Below, one piece after another: positions 9,156 to 30,746 of a stretch of DNA of 43,145 bases. The stretch is taken from the NCBI GenBank assembly GCA_002281535.1, contig NCGD01000020.1:20510-63654 (forward strand). The letters are read 5' to 3'. This DNA is from Sphingomonas sp. 28-63-12. GTDB lineage: Bacteria > Pseudomonadota > Alphaproteobacteria > Sphingomonadales > Sphingomonadaceae. How positions within the stretch are numbered: the first letter of the stretch is position 1; the number at the start of each line of letters is the position of its first letter. A program made the position numbers and the translations under genes. Below the pieces are notes generated by a model. That model was not told the DNA's origin. It was given only the letters and a program-made list of their open reading frames with translations, and made no database searches.

Positions 9156-10075
9156 GGTGCTTTGGCGTGGAAAGCGGCGATCATCGCGGCGGCAACCGAC
9201 AGCGCGATCTCGGCCGGGCCGATCGCACCGATATCCAGCCCGACGGGTGCATCGATCCGGTCGAGATCGGCCGCCGCCACCCCAGCCGCCGCCAGCCTTT
9301 CGCGGCGCGCGGCATGGCTGCGGCGCGAGCCCAACGCGCCGACATAGCCGGTCGGTGCGGCGAGCGCGGCGATCAGCGCGGGATCGTCGATCTTGGTATC
9401 GTGGCTGAGCGTCACCACCGCCGTTGCCGGGCCGGGCGCGTAAGCCGCCACCGCCTCGTCGGGCCAGCGATCATCAAGGGTGACGCCGGGGAAACGTTCC
9501 GGCGTAAGGAAGCGCGCGCGCGGATCGATGACGATCGTGGCGATGCCGAGTTCGCGGGCGAGCCCGGCCAGCGCCTGCGCGATCTGGACCGCGCCGATGA
9601 TCAGCAGCCGCCGCGGTGGATCATAGCGGTTAATGAAGGCCGCGCCCGCGATCGGGCGGAGCGAGCTTTGGCCGCTGGTGAGATCGGTGGTGACGCTGAG
9701 CGCCTGGCCGGCATTGCGCGCTTCGGTGATGCGATCGAACAGTTCAGGATCGAAGCCTTCCGCCGAGACCGGCTGGACGAGCACCTCAATCTCGCCGCCG
9801 CACGGCAAGCCGACTTCCCATGCAGCAGCATCGGCGACACCGTAGCGCTTGAGCTGAAACGGCGCGCCGGCGATGACGTCCGCCGCCGCGGCCATGATGT
9901 CGCTTTCGACACAGCCGCCCGAGACAGAGCCTTCGAACCCGCCATCGGCATGGACCAGCATATGGCTGCCGCGCGGGCGCGGTGCCGATCCCCAAGTGGA
10001 GACGACCGTCGCGATCGCCAGCGGCGCCCCTTTCCAGGCGGCGGCGGCGTTGAGAACGGAGTCATTGTCGGCCAT
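9152..10075 (-). CDS. XdhC/PaoD-family molybdenum hydroxylase chaperone
   Basis: XdhC-family proteins bind the matured molybdenum cofactor, assist its sulfuration and insert it into the large subunit. This one has 307 residues. The N-terminal XdhC/CoxI domain carries SVSGGCVESDI near residues 50-60, with the conserved cysteine. The C-terminal Rossmann-type domain has LLIIGAVQIAQALAGLA near 160 and the closing motif GYVGALGSRRSHAARRERL near 245. The order Fe-S, FAD, Mo, chaperone matches the paoABCD arrangement of E. coli. A long palindromic repeat separates it from the Mo-subunit gene. Confidence 0.92.
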   Translation of the reverse strand: MADNDSVLNAAAAWKGAPLAIATVVSTWGSAPRPRGSHMLVHADGGFEGSVSGGCVESDIMAAAADVIAGAPFQLKRYGVADAAAWEVGLPCGGEIEVLVQPVSAEGFDPELFDRITEARNAGQALSVTTDLTSGQSSLRPIAGAAFINRYDPPRRLLIIGAVQIAQALAGLARELGIATIVIDPRARFLTPERFPGVTLDDRWPDEAVAAYAPGPATAVVTLSHDTKIDDPALIAALAAPTGYVGALGSRRSHAARRERLAAAGVAAADLDRIDAPVGLDIGAIGPAEIALSVAAAMIAAFHAKAP

Positions 10076-10090
10076 TGGATCTCTCTTAAT

Positions 10091-10208
10091 CCGCTCGTCC
10101 TGAGTAGCGACTGAGCGAAGTCGAAGGCGCGTATCGAAGGACAGCGTTTGGGGCGGGTGCTTCGATACAGGTCTTCGACTTCGCTCAGCCCTTACTCAGC
10201 ACGAACGG
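10091..10208. repeat. Long imperfect palindrome, repeat family A, copy 1
   Basis: Two arms, 10095-10139 and 10160-10204, are reverse complements with a few mismatches. Key blocks are CTGAGCGAAGTCGAAG in the left arm, matched by CTTCGACTTCGCTCAG in the right, and TATCGAAG with its complement nearer the centre. The element fills the whole gap between the Mo-subunit stop and the xdhC start, so it is transcribed within an operon. A diverged second copy is at 30766-30882. Confidence 0.93.
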
Positions 10209-10216
10209 GTTTATAG

Positions 10217-12430
10217 CTAAACCGGCGGCAAGCCCGGCAGAATCTGGTCGAGCGTCATTGGCCAGTCGCGCACGCGCACGCCGGTGGCGTTGTAGATCGC
10301 GTTGGTGACCGCCGCGCCCGCGCCCGAAATGCCGAGCTCGCCAATCCCCTTCGCGCCGACCGGGCTGGCGTGATTGTCGATTTCCTCGACGAAATAGGCC
10401 TCGATCTGCGGCACATCGGCATTCACCGGGATATGATATTCGCCGAGATCGCGGTTGACGTAAGATCCGCTGCGTTGGTCGAGCACCGCATCCTCGTGCA
10501 GCGCATAGCCGATCCCCCAGATCATCCCGCCCAGCGCCTGGCTGCGCGCAGTCTTGGCGTTGAGGATGCGCCCGCAATCAAACACCCCAAGCATGCGGCG
10601 CACGCGCACCTCGCCGGTCACCGCGTTGACCGCGACCTCGGCGAATTGGGCGCCGTGGGTCGCCTGGCTGAAGCTGCGGCTGTTCTTGCCGGGGCGAAGG
10701 ATGCCCATCGCCGCGATCTCGGTATCGCCAACCAGCGTCCTGATCGGCACGCGCTTGTTGCCGGCAATGGCGTGGCCGTCCTTGAGCGTCATGTCTTCGG
10801 GCTTGGCGTCCATCCGCCGGGCGAGTTCAGCGACGATGTCATCGCACGCCAGTTGCACCGCCGACCCACTCGACGCGGCACCGAAGGACCCGCCCGATCC
10901 CGCGCCATCGGGATGATCCGAATCGCCCAGCATCACGCGCACCTTGTCGATCGACAGGCCGAGCATTTCGCCCGCGATCTGCGCGAGGATCGTATAGGTG
11001 CCGGTGCCGATATCGGTCATGTCGGTTTCGACGATCGCGATCCCCTCCGGCGTCAGGCGGACCCGCGCGTCGCTGTTGGCGAGGAAATTGACCCGCGCCG
11101 CGGTCGCCATGCCCAGTCCGATCAGCCATTCGCCCTCGCGCACCGAGCCGGGCGTCGCGACGCGCTTGTCCCAGCCAAAGCGTTCCGCGCCCTGATCGAG
11201 GCAGTCAGTCAGGCGCCGGGTGGAAAAGGGCACGCCGCGCATCGGATCGACAACGGGCTCGTTCAGCTTGCGAAAATCGATCGGGTCGAGGCCGAGTTGC
11301 TCGGCCATCTCGTCCATCGCGGTTTCGAGTGCCATCATGCCGACCGCTTCGCCGGGTGCCCGGACCGCGCCGGCGCGGGTGATGTTGAGCTTGACGATCC
11401 TGGTGGTGAACTGCCGCGCAGGGGATTCGTAGAGCGACAGGGCACCAAGCGCGACGGGCTCGAAAAAGCTGACCCCGACTTTCTGGCTGACGACGCTGTC
11501 CTGCGCCATGCCGGTCAGCCTGCCTTCGGCCGTGGCGGCGAGGCGAATGCGCTGAAAGGTATCCGACCGGCCGAAGACCGAATGGAACAGCTGCTGACGG
11601 GTGAGCGCAACCTTGACCGGCCGGCCGATCGCCTGGGCGGCGATCGAGGCGAGCACGATTTCCGGCCCGCCAATCTTGCCGCCAAAGCCGCCGCCGATAA
11701 AGGGCGAGAGCATGTGAATGCGCTCGATATCGATGCCGAGCGACTTGGCCAGCAACGGCCGGGCCGCGCGGAAGATCTGGATCGATCCGTAGAGCGTCAG
11801 ATCGTCGCCATCCCATTCGGCGACCGCGGCATGCGGCTCCATTGCGGCATGAACCTGATAGGGCGTCGAATAGGTGATATCGAGGGAGACCTCGGCCGCC
11901 GCCATGGCTGCATCGACATCGCCCTTGATCGCATCGGGCAGCATCGCGCCCTCGTGCGGCGGCTTGGCGCTGCCAATTTCGGCCATGGTATCGAACTTGC
12001 CTTTTTGCGGCGCGTAATCGACCGTCACCGCCAGGGCGGCAGCGCGTGCCTGCTCAAAGCTTTCGGCGACGACGAGCGCGACGATCTGGCCATAGCTTTC
12101 GACGACGCCGTCGAATCGCGGGGCCATGTCTGCGCCGATATTGGGGGATTCCGCAGGCAGGCGGGGATCATCGGTGATGATCGTAATCACGCCGGGCATC
12201 GTGCTCGCTGCCCTGGTATCGACCGATTTGACGGTGCCGACCGCGATCGTCGCGGTGACGGCATAGCCATAAGCGAGCTTTCCCCTGGGGCGCTGATCAG
12301 CGGCATAGCGGGCGACGCCGGTGACCTTTGCAAGCCCGTCGGTACGGTCGATCCCCTTGCCGATCAGCCCCTGTACACCGCGATCGAGCGCGGAGGCGCC
12401 GTAATCGGCATCCATTTTATGTTCGGTCAT
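10217..12430 (-). CDS. Molybdenum-binding subunit of PaoC-type aldehyde oxidoreductase
   Basis: This is the 737-residue large subunit of a three-subunit molybdenum hydroxylase, which hydroxylates aldehydes or N-heterocycles with water as oxygen source. Family features are [18 protein letters not shown] near residue 28, [13 protein letters not shown] near 194, the glycine-rich [13 protein letters not shown] near 245 and the late catalytic glutamate in [14 protein letters not shown] (Glu698), at a position matching the proton-accepting Glu of E. coli PaoC. The size and gene order fit PaoC (YagR) better than the larger XdhB or AorL. The start overlaps the FAD-subunit stop as ATGA. Real substrate unknown; an isoquinoline-oxidoreductase-like role cannot be excluded. 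Confidence 0.93.
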
Positions 12431-24646: not shown

Positions 24647-26761
24647 CTAGTCGATCTCCAATATCACGGCATCAACGGCCAGGCTGTCGCCCGGCGCGGC
24701 GCTGACCGATTTGACGATACCGGCCTTTTCGGCGCGCAGGATATTTTCCATCTTCATCGCCTCGACCACCGCCAGCGGCTGGCCAAGCACCACCGTGTCG
24801 CCCGCCGCGACATCGAGCCGCATCAGCAGCCCCGGCATCGGGCAGAGCAGGAAGCGCGACAGATCGGGCGGCACTTTCTCGATCAGATGGCGCGCATAGG
24901 GCGCGACATGCGCGGGCAAGGTCCGCACGATATGCGACGCACCGCGCGTGGTGAGCTTGAAGCCGGTGCGGGTGCGCGCGATCTTGACGATCAGCGGTTC
25001 ACCATCGATCTCGGCCTCGACCACCCGGTCGCCCGGGGTATATTCCATTGCCAGATCGAGCGCCACGCCATCGACGCTAATCTCATCCTCGTCGAGTTCG
25101 ATATTGTGATCGACCCCGTCGATCCGGACGGTCCAATCGGCGGGGGGCTGGAGGCGATCACCCAATTGCCCATCGCTACGGCGGGCGCGATCTGCCTCTG
25201 CCGTCGCGGCAAAAGCGGCGATCGCCGCGAGCGAGCGAAGCAGATCGGGCGAGGCGGGCGCGCCATGGAAGCCGTCGGGATATTCCTCGGCAATGAAGCC
25301 GGTGGTGATGGTGCCCGAGCGGAAGCGCGGGTGCTGCATCAGCGCCGACAGGAAATCGATATTATTGCCCGGCCCCTCGATTTCGAACGCATCGAGCGCG
25401 GCGATCTGGGCATCGATTGCCCCTTCTCGGGTGGGGGCCCAGGTGATCAGCTTGGCGATCATCGGATCGTAGAAAATGCTGACCTCGCCGCCTTCGCGGA
25501 CGCCGTCATCGACACGGGTGTAGGGCTGCTGCCCCGCCTCCTCCATATCCGTCACCCCAGCGAAAGCTGGGGTCTCCCCGTTGGAGAGCGCGCCACCCGC
25601 CGCTTGAGACCCCAGCTTTCGCTGGGGTGACGCTTGTGGGTCGGTGTAAGGCGTGCCCTCGCTCTCGGGCGGGCTGTACCGCACCAGCCGCCCGGTGCTG
25701 GGCAAAAACCCGCGATAGGGATCTTCCGCATAGACGCGGTTCTCGATCGCCCAGCCGTTGATGCCGATATCGGCCTGCGTGAATGCCAGCGCCTCGCCGC
25801 TCGCGACGCGGATCATCTGTTCAACCAGATCGATGCCGGTGATCGCTTCGGTCACCGGATGCTCGACCTGGAGCCGGGTGTTCATTTCGAGGAAGTAGAA
25901 CCCCTCCCCCGTGGTGTCCGCGCCCGAGACGATCAGCTCGACGGTGCCGGCCGAATAATAGCCGACCGCGCGGGCGAGCGCGACCGCCTGTTCGCCCATC
26001 GCCTTGCGCATCTTGGGCGTGACGAAGGGTGACGGCGCTTCCTCGACCACCTTCTGGTGGCGGCGCTGGATGCTGCATTCGCGCTCGTTGAGGTAGAGGA
26101 TATTGCCGTGCTGATCGCCGAGAAGCTGGATTTCGATGTGGCGCGGACTTTCGATGAATTTTTCGATGAACACGCGGTCGTCGCCGAAACTCGCCAGCCC
26201 TTCGCGCTTGGTTGCCTCGAAGCCCTCGCGCACATCCTGTTCGGAATAAGCGAGCCGCATCCCCTTGCCGCCGCCGCCCGCGCTCGCCTTCATCATCACC
26301 GGATAGCCGATGCCCGAGGCGATCGTCACCGCCTCCTCGGTATCGGCGATCTCGCCGAGGAACCCCGGCACGACATTGACTCCGGCGGCCTTGGCGAGCT
26401 TCTTCGATTCGATCTTGTCGCCCATCGCGGCGATGGCGGCGGGCGGCGGCCCGACAAAAGCGATCCCTGCTTCGGCGCAGGCGCGCGCGAAACTCTCGCG
26501 TTCGGAGAGGAAGCCATAGCCGGGGTGGATGCAATCAGCCCCGGTCGCCTTTGCAGCGGCGAGGATGAGGTCGGCCTTGAGATAGCTCTCGGCAGCGGGC
26601 GCCGGCCCGAGGCGAACCGCTTCGTCGGCCATCAGGACGTGGGGCGCGCGGGCATCGGCGTCGGAATAGACCGCGACCGTGGCGAGGCCCATCCGCTTGG
26701 CGGTGCGGAACACCCGGCAGGCGATTTCACCACGATTGGCGACGAGGATTTTCTTGAGCAT
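24647..26761 (-). CDS. pccA: Propionyl-CoA carboxylase, biotin-carrying alpha subunit
   Basis: The alpha subunit carboxylates its own biotin with bicarbonate and ATP; the beta subunit then makes methylmalonyl-CoA. ILVANRGEIACRVFRTAKRMG starts the biotin carboxylase domain; the ATP loop KASAGGGGKGMR is at 158-169, EMNTRLQVEHPVTE at 292-305, and the C-terminal biotin site EAMKMEN has Lys670. The chosen ATG gives 704 residues, about 40 more than relatives. The excess is residues about 374-415, encoded by a palindromic repeat inserted in frame; without it the sequence reads through normally (PPESEG into RVDDGVREGGEVS). A longer upstream frame to 26860 is rejected. No pccB is present. The acyl-CoA specificity is inferred from the mcm and mce context. 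Confidence 0.93.
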   Translation of the reverse strand: MLKKILVANRGEIACRVFRTAKRMGLATVAVYSDADARAPHVLMADEAVRLGPAPAAESYLKADLILAAAKATGADCIHPGYGFLSERESFARACAEAGIAFVGPPPAAIAAMGDKIESKKLAKAAGVNVVPGFLGEIADTEEAVTIASGIGYPVMMKASAGGGGKGMRLAYSEQDVREGFEATKREGLASFGDDRVFIEKFIESPRHIEIQLLGDQHGNILYLNERECSIQRRHQKVVEEAPSPFVTPKMRKAMGEQAVALARAVGYYSAGTVELIVSGADTTGEGFYFLEMNTRLQVEHPVTEAITGIDLVEQMIRVASGEALAFTQADIGINGWAIENRVYAEDPYRGFLPSTGRLVRYSPPESEGTPYTDPQASPQRKLGSQAAGGALSNGETPAFAGVTDMEEAGQQPYTRVDDGVREGGEVSIFYDPMIAKLITWAPTREGAIDAQIAALDAFEIEGPGNNIDFLSALMQHPRFRSGTITTGFIAEEYPDGFHGAPASPDLLRSLAAIAAFAATAEADRARRSDGQLGDRLQPPADWTVRIDGVDHNIELDEDEISVDGVALDLAMEYTPGDRVVEAEIDGEPLIVKIARTRTGFKLTTRGASHIVRTLPAHVAPYARHLIEKVPPDLSRFLLCPMPGLLMRLDVAAGDTVVLGQPLAVVEAMKMENILRAEKAGIVKSVSAAPGDSLAVDAVILEID
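25526..25651. repeat. In-frame palindromic repeat insertion in pccA, family B copy 1
   Basis: A 126-bp insert, 42 codons, holds a perfect 26-bp inverted repeat: 25551-25576 and 25606-25631 (outer GTCACCCCAGC, inner GGGGTCTC). Each arm is itself a hairpin, ACCCCAGC and GCTGGGGT around a four-base loop (GAAA or TTTC). GGTGTAAGG at 25643-25651 and GGTGTAGGG at 25517-25525 match at eight of nine bases and flank the insert, like a target-site duplication. The reading frame stays open through the whole element. Confidence 0.93.
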
Positions 26762-26766
26762 TATTT

Positions 26767-27141
26767 TCACCACTTCAATGGGCCGTCCGACGTCGCTGGA
26801 AAACCGGTTTCGAATGACGTTGGAACTCGGCCATCTGGTCGGTAGTGACCCGGTTCGCACCAGAAGCCGGCACCCTCGATGGGGATTTTTCCTTCGGCTT
26901 TCGCTGACGCGACGAAATTTGCGTTGAGCAGCCTTGCGGCCATCGCACAGTTACCGCCGTTAAAATCAGCAGATTCGTTCGCATCAAAAGTGCTGAAATG
27001 TACGCGTTCGTTAAGACCTAACGGTGAGTTTCGATAGAGAGTGAAGCTATGGTCAGGCTCAGAATTGCATCCTGCGAGCGGCAGGATAATCGTTGCAATC
27101 AAGCAAACCGAATAGCGTCGCTGAACTCCCCCCGCTCTCAC
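26767..27141 (-). CDS. Unknown small lipoprotein
   Basis: A 124-residue protein with signal sequence and lipobox LPLAGC (cysteine at about residue 25). The mature region contains two further cysteines (GGNCAMAA and FWCEPG), possibly a disulfide, and ends in PLKW. I do not recognise a family. The start is GTG at 27141 with an AGGAGGA box five bases upstream. It lies between bioB and pccA on the same strand, five bases before pccA, so it is presumably part of that transcript. Confidence 0.75.
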   Translation of the reverse strand: MRAGGVQRRYSVCLIATIILPLAGCNSEPDHSFTLYRNSPLGLNERVHFSTFDANESADFNGGNCAMAARLLNANFVASAKAEGKIPIEGAGFWCEPGHYRPDGRVPTSFETGFPATSDGPLKW

Positions 27142-27158
27142 TCTGCTCCTCCTTTTCC

Positions 27159-27241
27159 GTCATGCCGGATTTGATCCGGCATCCCGCTGCCTTTTCCAAC
27201 CGCGCAGAAGTAGCGGGACCCCGGATCAAGTCCGGGGTGAC
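27159..27241. repeat. Palindromic repeat family B, copy 2
   Basis: Two hairpins facing each other: ATGCCGGAT-TTG-ATCCGGCAT (27162-27182) and ACCCCGGA-TCAAG-TCCGGGGT (27218-27238). The outer ends are GTC and GAC as in the pccA copy, and the inner flanks CCCGCT and AGCGGG also pair. The arms differ by paired changes (TG..CA against CC..GG) that keep each hairpin. The element lies 18 bases after the bioB stop. Confidence 0.9.
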
Positions 27242-27259
27242 GGTCGTGGTTTGGCGTGG

Positions 27260-28249
27260 TCACGCCGCCACCACCCGCATCGGCTCTTCGCCAACCATCG
27301 GCCGCAGCCCCAGCCGCGCGAACATCGCGCCGTCGGCGCTGTCGCCGCGGTTGCCGGTGGTCAGCAGCTTGTCACCGGTGAAGATCGAGTTCGCGCCTGC
27401 CATGAAGCAGAGCGCCTGGGTCGCTTCCGACATGCTCTCGCGGCCTGCCGACAAGCGCACCATGCTCAGCGGCATGGTGATCCGCGCGACCGCGACGGTC
27501 CGCACGAATTCGATATCGTCGATCTTCGCGAGTGGCGTGTCGGCGAGCATATCGCCCAGCACGGTGCCCTTGACCGGCACCAGCGCGTTGACCGGCACGC
27601 TTTCCGGGTGGCGCTCCAGCGTGGCGAGCGCTTGGACGAAACCGACGCGGTCGGCGCGGGTTTCGCCCATGCCGACGATGCCGCCGCAGCAGACGTTGAT
27701 GCCCGCCGCGCGGACATGATCGAGCGTATCGAGCCGATCCTCGAAGGTCCGCGTGGTGATGACATTGCCGTAATTTTCCGGCGAGGTATCGATATTGTGG
27801 TTGTAATAATCGAGCCCCGCCTCGGCGAGCTGTGCGGCCTGATGCGGTTCGAGCATCCCGAGCGTCATGCAGGTTTCCAGCCCCATCGCCTTCACACCCG
27901 CGACCATCGATACGACCGCGTCCATGTCGCGGTCCTTGGGGTTGCGCCAGGCAGCGCCCATGCAGAAACGTTGCGATCCGCTCGCTTTGGCGTCGGCGGC
28001 GGCAGCGAGCACTTCGTCCACCTCCATCAGCTTCTCGGCCTTAAGCCCCGTCTCGGCGGAGGCACTTTGCGAGCAATAGCCACAATCCTCCGGGCAGCCG
28101 CCGGTCTTGATCGACAGCAACGTGCACAGCTGCACTTCACCCGCCGCATGATGCGCGCGGTGGACGGTTTGGGCGCGGAACATGAGGTCGTCGAACGGCA
28201 GATCGAACAGGGCGGCGATTTCAGTGCGGGTCCAGTCGGTGCGGATCAA
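27260..28249 (-). CDS. bioB: Biotin synthase
   Basis: BioB is a radical-SAM enzyme that inserts sulfur into dethiobiotin. The 329-residue length is typical. The SAM-cluster cysteines are Cys52, Cys56 and Cys59 in [37 protein letters not shown] and the [2Fe-2S]-site arginine in [11 protein letters not shown] are also present. The start is TTG overlapping the upstream stop as TTGA, with AAAGGTGG before it. It is apart from any other bio gene; its place beside pccA, a biotin enzyme, makes metabolic sense. A palindromic repeat follows its stop. Confidence 0.96.
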
Positions 28250-28596
28250 TTGACCACCTTTCCAATTTCACTCAAGAAAATGCCCAACCCTGTCGCAAAC
28301 AGACCGCTCGAAATGCCGCGTTCGTAATTGAAGAAGCGCCTCAGCGGCTTGCCGGTCTTGCGATGTGATATAATCGTGTTCATCGCGCCGAATCCCAGGA
28401 CGGTGCCCATCGAGACAAGCGCCAAGCTGACCATCACCAGCGTTGTCCCGGCCCCCCTGTCACCCTGAACCCAGGTCAGCATGGCACCCAGAGTAACGAG
28501 CCCGATGGTACTGAGATGCTTGAAATAATCATATTCCAGCAGCAGCCAGTCGGTGCGCGCGGCACCACTGACCTGTTCGTCCGGCAAGTCGCTCAT
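28246..28596 (-). CDS. Unknown small membrane protein
   Basis: A 116-residue protein with three hydrophobic segments at about 26-45, 49-75 and 94-115, hence probably an inner-membrane protein. A conserved-looking loop [17 protein letters not shown] joins the last two. No family is recognised with certainty. It is tightly coupled: its ATG overlaps the mcm stop (ATGA) and its stop overlaps the bioB start (TTGA). A role in the propionate pathway is not implied by its sequence. Confidence 0.8.
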
Positions 28597-30746
28597 TCGG
28601 CAGCCTCGCTTTCGGGGGGCATATTATGCCCCAGTAACCGCAGCACTTCCGCCGCCGCCTGTACCAGATTGGTCCCGGGGCCGAAGATCGCCTGCACGCC
28701 AGCCTCACGCAGAAAATCATAATCCTGCGCCGGGATGACGCCGCCGGCGATGACCTTGATATCGGCACGCCCCGCGTCCTTCAGCAGGCCGATCAGTTCG
28801 GGGATCAGCGTCTTGTGGCCTGCCGCCAGCGACGAGGCACCGACGACATCGACGTCGTGCTCGATCGCCAGCGCCGCCGCCTCGCGCGGGGTCTGGAACA
28901 GCGGGCCGGGCACGATCTCGAACCCCAGATCGCCAAACATGCTGCTCACCAGATTGGCGCCGCGATCATGCCCGTCCTGCCCCATCTTGGCGACGAGCAT
29001 GCGCGGTTTGCGGCCAAGGCGGCGTTCGGTGGCATCGACGCCTGCCAGAAGCTGCGCCCAGCGCGCGTCATCGGCATAGGCACCGCCATAAATGCCGCTG
29101 ACCGGCGTAGGGCTGGTCGCATACCGTCCGAACACATCTTCCATCGCCGAGGATATTTCGCCGAGCGTTGCGCGAGCCCGGGCGCAGTCGACGGCAAGCG
29201 CGAGCAGGTTTTCGGTACCCTTCGCTCCCGCCCGCAATGCATCGATCGCTGCGCGGCACTTCGCCTCGTCGCGCCCCGCCTTCACCCGTGCGATCCGGGC
29301 AATCTGACCCTCGCGCACCGCGACGTTGTCAATGTCGAGAATCTCGATCGCGTCCTGTTCGGCCAGCGCATATTTGTTGACGCCGACGATCACGTCCTCG
29401 CCACGATCGACCCGCGCCTGCCGGGCAGTGGCGGCCTCCTCGATCATCGCCTTGGGCCAGCCGGCAGCGACCGCCTTGGCCATACCGCCTTCGCCATCGA
29501 CGCGCTCGATGATCGCCCAGGCCTTGTCGACCAGCTCTGCCGTCAGCGCCTCGACATAATAGGAACCGCCCAAAGGATCGACGACCTTGGTAATCCCCGT
29601 TTCTTCCTGCAGCACGATCTGCGTGTTGCGGGCGATGCGGGCGGAGAAATCGGTGGGGAGCGCAATCGCCTCGTCGAGCGCGTTGGTGTGGAGCGACTGC
29701 GTGCCACCAAATGCTGCCGCCATCGCCTCGACGGTGGTGCGGATGACGTTGTTGTACGGATCCTGCTCGGTCAGCGAGACGCCGCTGGTCTGGCAATGGG
29801 TGCGCAGCATCTTGGAGCGCTCGTCCTTGGCGCCAAGATCGGTCATCACCCGGTGCCAGAGCGTGCGCGCGGCGCGCAGCTTGGCGACTTCCATGAAGAA
29901 GTTCATGCCGATCGCGAAGAAGAACGAAAGCCGCCCGGCAAAGGCATCGATATCCAGCCCGGTTGCCATTGCCGCCTTGGCATATTCGCGGCCATCGGCG
30001 ATCGTGAAGGCAAGCTCCTGCACCTGCGTCGCGCCAGCTTCCTGCATGTGATAGCCGCTGATCGAAATGCTGTTGAACTTCGGCATGTTGGCCGAGGTGT
30101 AGGCGATGATGTCGGCAATGATCCGCATCGATGGCTCGGGCGGATAGATATAGGTGTTGCGGACCATGAACTCCTTCAGAATGTCATTCTGAATCGTCCC
30201 GTCGAGCTGCGCGGCGGCCACGCCCTGCTCCTCGCCCGCAATGATGAAGAAGGCGAGGATCGGGATGACCGCGCCGTTCATTGTCATGCTGACGCTCATC
30301 TTGTCGAGCGGGATGCCGTCGAACAGGATCTTCATGTCGTCGATCGTGTCGATCGCGACGCCCGCTTTGCCGACATCGCCGGTAACGCGCGGATGATCGC
30401 TATCGTACCCGCGATGCGTGGCGAGATCGAAGGCAACCGACAGCCCCTTTTGCCCCGCGGCGAGGTTGCGGCGGTAGAAAGCGTTCGATGCCTCTGCGGT
30501 GGAGAAGCCCGCATATTGGCGGATCGTCCAGGCGCGCCCCGCATACATCGACGCGCGCACGCCGCGGGTGAAGGGCGCAAAACCGGGCAGACCGGGATCA
30601 ATACCGGCAATATCTGCCTGCGTATAGAGTGGCTTGACCACAATCCCCTCCGGTGTGTGCCAGGTGAGATCGGCGCCTTTTACTTCCTTCGCGGCAAGCG
30701 CCTGCCAATCGGCGAGCGTTGGTCCGGTGTTGGGTTCGTCAGTCAT
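28593..30746 (-). CDS. mcm: Methylmalonyl-CoA mutase
   Basis: This B12 enzyme rearranges (R)-methylmalonyl-CoA to succinyl-CoA. The 717-residue protein is the single-chain, homodimeric form. The TIM-barrel half carries [21 protein letters not shown] near residue 62 and [20 protein letters not shown] near 103; the C-terminal cobalamin domain has DGHDRG at 591-596, with His593 the cobalt ligand. [14 protein letters not shown] near 345 is also typical. The usual GTPase chaperone MeaB is not in the window. It heads the group mcm, membrane protein, bioB; a family A palindrome separates it from the enoyl-CoA hydratase gene. Confidence 0.97.

Follow-up and report, generated by a model that had tools for sequence, protein, structure and literature searches.

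GTAG REPs and REPINs, which go with RAYT transposases, are short dispersed hairpins in inverted pairs, and MITEs are short, non-autonomous elements with terminal inverted repeats. The described group that most resembles the element reported here is that of the CGTC-1 REPs, which in the excerpts of the source consulted are characterised by a CGTC tag, an 8-bp stem and a 4-nt loop, and are dispersed, mostly intergenic and often present as dimers (PMC3733652). According to the same excerpts they are known from S. wittichii and other alphaproteobacteria, and no dedicated transposase is known for them; complementary A/T in the first and second position of the stem is almost invariable and the tail is mostly CCA (PMC3733652). 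Some CGTC-1 REPs lie inside genes, in recB of two Xanthomonas species a REP is found at a common site in the orthologues, and roles of REPs in mRNA stabilisation and termination have been hypothesised (PMC3733652). The palindromic elements of Rickettsia and Wolbachia provide a second point of comparison. Excerpts of two sources place them in frame inside conserved proteins, at solvent-exposed positions, with different RPE groups near one another in Rickettsia orthologues (PMC3767692, PMC2229807), and Rickettsia Gmk with its insert was reported to be active (PMC2229807). For RPE-4, RPE-6 and RPE-7 the Rickettsia authors favoured one ancient insertion, and the choice between one old insertion and hotspots for insertions of different origin was left open in the text excerpted (PMC3767692).

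The window analysed here is a stretch of 43,145 nt from Sphingomonas sp. 28-63-12. An open reading frame on its minus strand (24647..26860) comprises 737 codons from a GTG start; the ATG at 26761 is the likely start and gives a protein of 704 aa. From the ORF call and Pfam, this gene is pccA, encoding the biotin-carboxylase/biotin-carrier subunit of propionyl-CoA carboxylase. Biotin_carb_N, CPSase_L_D2, Biotin_carb_C, PCC_BT and Biotin_lipoyl were all recovered, which is the domain set of PccA; the best PDB relative is 3n6r_A and the predicted fold matches PCC 3n6r. The Biotin_carb_C match is split into two stretches, the better-scoring of which begins past an insert. This insert lies in a loop of the biotin carboxylase C-terminal domain, with RLVRYSPPESEGTPY on one side and PYTRVDDGV on the other, and the peptide between them reads TDPQASPQRKLGSQAAGGALSNGETPAFAGVTDMEEAGQQ. 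The reading frame stays open through the whole insert, in line with the preliminary description of an in-frame insert in an otherwise normal PccA, and the protein is presumably made with the insert. The loop is 30 residues longer than that of the relative G019 and 44 residues longer than the shortest loops of the genus.

Within the insert, a perfect inverted repeat and the predicted RNA fold define a REP dimer at 25550..25632. Its arms, at 25550-25576 and 25606-25632, are perfect over 27 nt (26 nt had been given initially) and are separated by a spacer of 29 nt. Each arm is itself a hairpin, as had been proposed, with an 8-bp stem, a 4-nt loop (GAAA or TTTC) and a CGTC tag on the outer side of the stem. 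The first hairpin (25554..25573) reads ACCCCAGC-GAAA-GCTGGGGT and has its tag at 25550-25553; the second (25609..25628) reads ACCCCAGC-TTTC-GCTGGGGT and has its tag, GACG on the plus strand, at 25629-25632. None of 60 dinucleotide shuffles of the same pccA loop matched the 27-nt arm, the longest shuffled arm being 8 nt. As RNA, the element has a predicted folding energy of −68.6 kcal/mol (z −9.2), with none of 200 shuffles as good, which agrees with the strong hairpin suggested for the mRNA. Rfam at gathering thresholds matched nothing within the window.

The insert region had been placed at 25526..25651 on the minus strand, and comparison with relatives as well as the model confidence discussed below point to the same region. 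Its size of 126 bp, or 42 codons, rested on a flanking duplication taken for a target-site duplication. The letters of this duplication exist: a 10-nt direct repeat, GGTGTAGGGC/GGTGTAAGGC, is present on both flanks on the plus strand, with the left copy at 25517..25526 and the right copy at 25643..25652, the latter being identical to the former in 9 of 10 positions. Its protein-level counterpart (TPY...PYTRVDD), however, was found in the nearest relatives G019 and G167, which have other loops and both lack this insert, and TPY...Y(V/T)RVDD was also seen in loops without a recognised repeat. We therefore judge the direct repeat to be older than the insert and reject it as evidence of a target-site duplication, so that the insert size derived from it is unsupported.

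The repeat unit, GTCACCCCAGCGAAAGCTGGGGT, occurs 45 times with at most 3 mismatches in the 3.48-Mb assembly of the same genome (G000, 94.8% complete), against none for a reversed-pattern control, and was found twice in the window against none in 100 shuffles. The insert thus belongs to a dispersed, REP-like palindrome, as first suspected. Thirty-six of the 45 units start with GTC, the base before it lying outside the search pattern, and some copies read ATCCCAGC...GCTGGGAT, with A/T in both first stem positions. Merged within 120 nt, the units fall into 37 places, all of which were inspected for open ORFs of at least 150 aa with 25 aa on either side of the repeat. Twenty-one ORFs span a copy. 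Among the 20 besides PccA, one (ribonuclease R) has a Pfam domain on both sides of the repeat, four have a domain wholly downstream of it and 15 have no domain; pccA and the ribonuclease R gene are therefore the two genes of this genome in which Pfam domain sequence lies to either side of an in-frame copy. Elsewhere in the window, at 27157-27243, another CGTC-type inverted repeat has 32-nt arms that are 84% complementary; it lies just past the end of a bioB-like ORF (27260-28249), between that ORF and a small ORF.

With the CGTC-1 REPs the pccA unit shares the tag, the 8-bp stem, the 4-nt loop, the A-T first stem pair and the dispersal in 45 units. It differs from them in its second pair, which is C-G, and in its unpaired tail, CTC, whereas the excerpted description of CGTC-1 gives A/T pairs and mostly CCA (PMC3733652). 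Because of this tail, we file the element, judged by its sequence, as a CGTC-type REP close to CGTC-1 and not as a full member. The comparison with the Rickettsia palindromic elements made at the outset is apt, as here too a dispersed palindrome lies in frame in a conserved protein, in a loop between strands whose low model confidence suggests exposure. The differences are that the host genus is outside Rickettsiales, that the families have other copies in the carrier genome and that they vary between close relatives. Excerpts of PMC3733652 treat RPE-6 of R. conorii as CGTC-1 and its RPE-4 as CGTC-4 elements, so a distant kinship of the pccA element with the RPEs is possible.

The PccA region was present in 197 of 201 genomes of the genus, sampled as one genome per species. 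Loop DNA was taken from 152 of the 197, mostly those with the better scores for a query that covers some of the insert, which biases the sample towards sequences like that of the window. It yielded 146 loops, six genomes giving none, and 145 were usable. The loop of G187 (locus L180) reads as X over a long stretch, its DNA being N there, and is excluded from the counts. One of ten repeat families is present in 75 of the 145 loops, 68 have none and two (G071 and G154) are long and contain no recognised repeat. The family labels are peptide patterns written after the loops had been viewed: A (SPQRKLGS/PAFAGVT, 9 loops, including that of G000), B (SPRRRGS/DPRLRGD, 11), C (SEVEG/STSLSTNG, 16), D (SPSRLREG and PLPQAGG, 15), E (SPSGEGLG/PSPEGEG, 6), F (IASEATQ/LLRSARND, 5), G (HGEGD, 7), I (HSWGG, 2), J (SAPAQAG, 2) and K (ASTGSAA/ASTSSVATQ, 2). 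At least one row with a perfect inverted repeat above all 60 shuffles was found in nine of the ten families, K with its two rows having none. Similar C- and G-rich hairpins are shared by D and E and by G and I; these pairs may be related, so that a cautious estimate would be seven or eight families. Loops from named loci (79 of 80 extracted) show, by reading, comparable inserts in entries labelled Hephaestia, Sphingorhabdus and Croceibacterium besides Sphingomonas.

Palindromes are concentrated in the long loops. Where the core measures 75 nt or longer (77 loops), perfect arms of at least 10 nt are present in 55 and 48 beat all 60 shuffles, the remaining 29 not exceeding all shuffles on perfect arms; in the 68 short loops, arms of this length are present in none and nine beat all shuffles. 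More distant PccA of other orders have loops of 50-69 residues (L121-L130, 9 of 10 extracted; by reading), against 94 in the PccA of the window. These mostly palindromic long loops and the shorter loops of distant PccA speak against an old, non-palindromic protein loop, which the preliminary description had named as the reading opposed to its own. Where the excerpts of PMC3733652 describe a common site in recB of two Xanthomonas species, the PccA loop is occupied by ten families across 75 genomes from different species.

Families B, C, D and F were searched for further copies in four genomes each. The matches count both strands of the palindromes, the number of places being about half, and since 40 candidates were scored in most of these genomes the counts are lower bounds. 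Family B gave at least 84 matches in G009, at least 18 in G091, at least 45 in G214 and one in G000; family C at least 25 in G211, at least 75 in G167, at least 33 in G082 and one in G000; family D at least 85 in G031, at least 86 in G163, at least 52 in G029 and one in G000; and family F at least 80 in each of G155, G020 and G084 and at least 16 in G144. In G084, G163 and G082 the state of the pccA loop differs from the family searched there. In G155, family F copies at other places reach up to 95% identity to the insert over 77 nt. Together with that of the window, the inserts of five families (A, B, C, D and F) are thus multicopy in their carrier genomes. The family B insert of G009 has a CCA tail. 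The window also contains, at 10083-10216, an inverted repeat of 60 nt (80%) that has the CTGAGCGAAGTCGAAG core of family C and lies between two ORFs, one with its upstream end at 10075 and the other ending at 10217, so that G000 has at least one diverged family C copy beyond its single match.

A REP-associated transposase, which had been suggested as a partner to look for, did not emerge: Y1_Tnp (PF01797) had no match in G000, whose assembly is 94.8% complete, and was found in one of 25 genomes, as two adjacent pieces, while the controls of this search gave matches in 10 and 5 of 14. The pccA element thus resembles REPINs in consisting of short dispersed hairpins in an inverted pair, but differs from them in its tag, CGTC instead of GTAG, and in this distribution of Y1_Tnp. 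It resembles MITEs in being short and non-autonomous, with inverted repeats at its ends, but is without a demonstrable target-site duplication, and the search for a parent transposon covered PF01797 alone.

We interpret the PccA loop as a permissive surface loop that has been serially invaded by REPs, a landing pad, and assign this reading a probability of roughly 85%. A dimer of the dispersed CGTC-type hairpin would have landed open in frame in the loop. The loop would tolerate very different peptides, and in-frame insertions would survive selection there and not elsewhere in the protein. Across the genus, different palindromic repeats would enter the loop and be replaced by others between close species, and inserts could also decay by deletion to short hairpin scars. 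The hairpins may be moved by a factor acting in trans or by template switching. For the alternative left open in the excerpted Rickettsia work (PMC3767692), the hotspot answer is visible in PccA, with ten families at one loop, five of them checked as multicopy, and differing states between close relatives.

To gauge how often the loop changes, a codon tree was built with FastTree from 122 pccA genes with the loop removed; 66 of its 119 inner branches were starred and 22 were open. At least 56 changes are required for the 12 loop states on this tree, compared with a mean of 67.6 for shuffled labels and a least possible number of 11, which indicates some inheritance but frequent change. The two genes nearest to that of the window are those of G019, with 89% nucleotide identity outside the loop and a short hairpin only in place of this insert, and G167, with 88% identity and an unrelated palindrome of family C; alignment with close relatives, which had been proposed as a check, thus makes the insert lineage-specific. 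States also differ between G158 (C) and G123 (D), between G020 (F) and G084 (E) and between G171 (A) and G122 (none). Ten close pairs have 87-96% nucleotide identity outside the loop and dN/dS of 0.03-0.11, and pccA outside the loop is under purifying selection; nine of these pairs differ in loop state, G009 and G091 having the same family.

Much of this turnover could represent homologous exchange of pccA segments between species and not new insertion, an explanation that we consider plausible without thinking it probable. Similar alleles of C (G034, G094, G192, G211 and G116) and D (G095, G117 and G151) are interleaved on the tree in one subclade, which may reflect such exchange, and because alleles may spread in this way within a subclade the 56 changes are not 56 insertions. 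Different families, however, cannot come from exchange alone, and the 75 inserts form 35 clusters at 75% identity and 22 at 70%, though one at 60%. Clustering at 60-65% identity is uninformative, since even unrelated inserts reach a mean of 54% when aligned. The number of insertions must be seven or eight at the least and is likely to be some tens.

Comparable inserts are nearly absent from the rest of the protein. In 121 PccA with complete N-termini, insertions of at least 15 aa are confined to the loop, the BT domain of G127 and a garbled C-terminus of G074, which looks frameshifted. By reading, the BT domain of G127 (locus L192) contains a 38-residue peptide of palindrome type, SPVRPELVEG...RPSTSSGRAEV, and insertions of 8-12 aa occur at this place in five more rows. 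An AlphaFold2 model of the 704-aa PccA from a 32-sequence alignment has a mean pLDDT of 83.2; values fall below 50 in the stretch 375-410, which is framed by strands 361-363 and 414-419, and likewise at residues 347-355, outside the insert. In this model the insert has low confidence, as if disordered, and the loop is probably exposed and poorly structured. Since inserts are rare elsewhere, pLDDT is low and the edges of the inserts vary by reading, we consider that a hotspot here would more probably result from the tolerance of an exposed loop than from targeting at the DNA level.

Targeting at the DNA level would mean that REPs home to hairpins or REP remnants in the loop, by insertion of REP into REP or by gene conversion, and that the site stays hot. 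The nested or double elements in G022, G156 and G003 (by reading) and the short hairpins in the loops of G019, G024 and G082 are what such a process would leave. The edges of the inserts, however, are by reading several residues apart from one family to the next, homology cannot drive most swaps since the sequences of most families differ, and the filled loop of G171 has a close relative, G122, with a plain short loop. We consider targeting unlikely on balance.

It appears improbable that the insert is retained for a function, be it as a hairpin in the mRNA with an effect on translation or stability or as a peptide that aids PccA. The predicted RNA hairpin is very stable, and the roles in mRNA stabilisation and termination hypothesised for REPs in the excerpts of PMC3733652 would suit it, but 68 of 145 loops have no recognised repeat and the families and lengths differ. 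The used frame was more hydrophilic than other open frames in 42 of 70 cases, which is not a clear selection for a hydrophilic frame. Still less credit can be given to a single ancient insert that entered PccA once and diverged into all present loops, as argued for RPE-4, RPE-6 and RPE-7: it has the Rickettsia precedent (excerpts of PMC3767692), and some alleles of families B and C are common to several species, but in insert-bearing genomes the repeats of B, C, D and F are present at further places, for F at the identity of up to 95% given above, and the loops read in PccA of other orders are shorter. The view that the loop is simply a hypervariable stretch of protein in which palindromes arose by chance can practically be dismissed, for although its length does vary where no repeat is recognised (43-61 residues, G071 and G154 being longer), perfect 27-nt arms were reached in none of 60 shuffles and 45 unit copies stand against none in the control.

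Intragenic REPs and RPEs are known already; what is new here is the scale and turnover at one loop. Among the literature matches listed, none described one loop occupied in series by so many families, and none dealt with REP inserts in the PccA, RNase R or methylmalonyl-CoA mutase of Sphingomonas, though single cases may figure in the list of REP-bearing ORFs that accompanies PMC3733652. The PccA loops form a natural series, with dozens of insertion genotypes, for measuring the cost of an insert of 20-50 residues and, in a genus with many cultured strains, give a handle on the movement of CGTC-type REPs that have no known transposase.

Other copies inside genes, sought as the preliminary description had proposed, include another REP dimer, of the family seen in pccA and likewise in frame, in G000 (G000:C44:59400-59478, locus L010), within the RNB domain of ribonuclease R, where the domain match (273-626) spans the repeat (414-441). 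The perfect arm of this loop is 8 nt, a length reached by 11 of 60 shuffles, and its assignment as a REP rests on the match of the unit to its own family. RNase R was found in 59 of 61 genomes, and the better-scoring 30 loci were read. Their loops range from 42 to 243 nt. Among the 26 of at least 75 nt, all 60 shuffles are surpassed in seven and arms of 10 nt or longer are present in 11; neither applies to any of the four short loops. The repeats in these loops include C-, D-, E- and G-like types by reading.

One may speculate, though we doubt it, that landing-pad loops of Sphingomonas, at least those of PccA, RNase R and methylmalonyl-CoA mutase, keep turning mobile hairpins into protein, with hairpin remnants as preferred entry points that would draw further REPs into a loop already hit; such a site would then be a self-renewing cassette position rather than a merely tolerated one. 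The mutase gene of the window (28593..30746, minus strand) has a short loop without an insert and was chosen as a negative control for the pccA loop. The mutase was found in 58 of 61 genomes, and its match breaks near residue 510 in eight of them, so the pccA loop is not unique and this mutase loop is a possible further landing pad. The 38 loci read yielded 33 loops, of which 25 are short and eight long; the five other loci had unbroken matches. Five of the eight long inserts (L365-L372) exceed all 60 shuffles and three do not, and by reading they mostly resemble the C- and G-rich family G.
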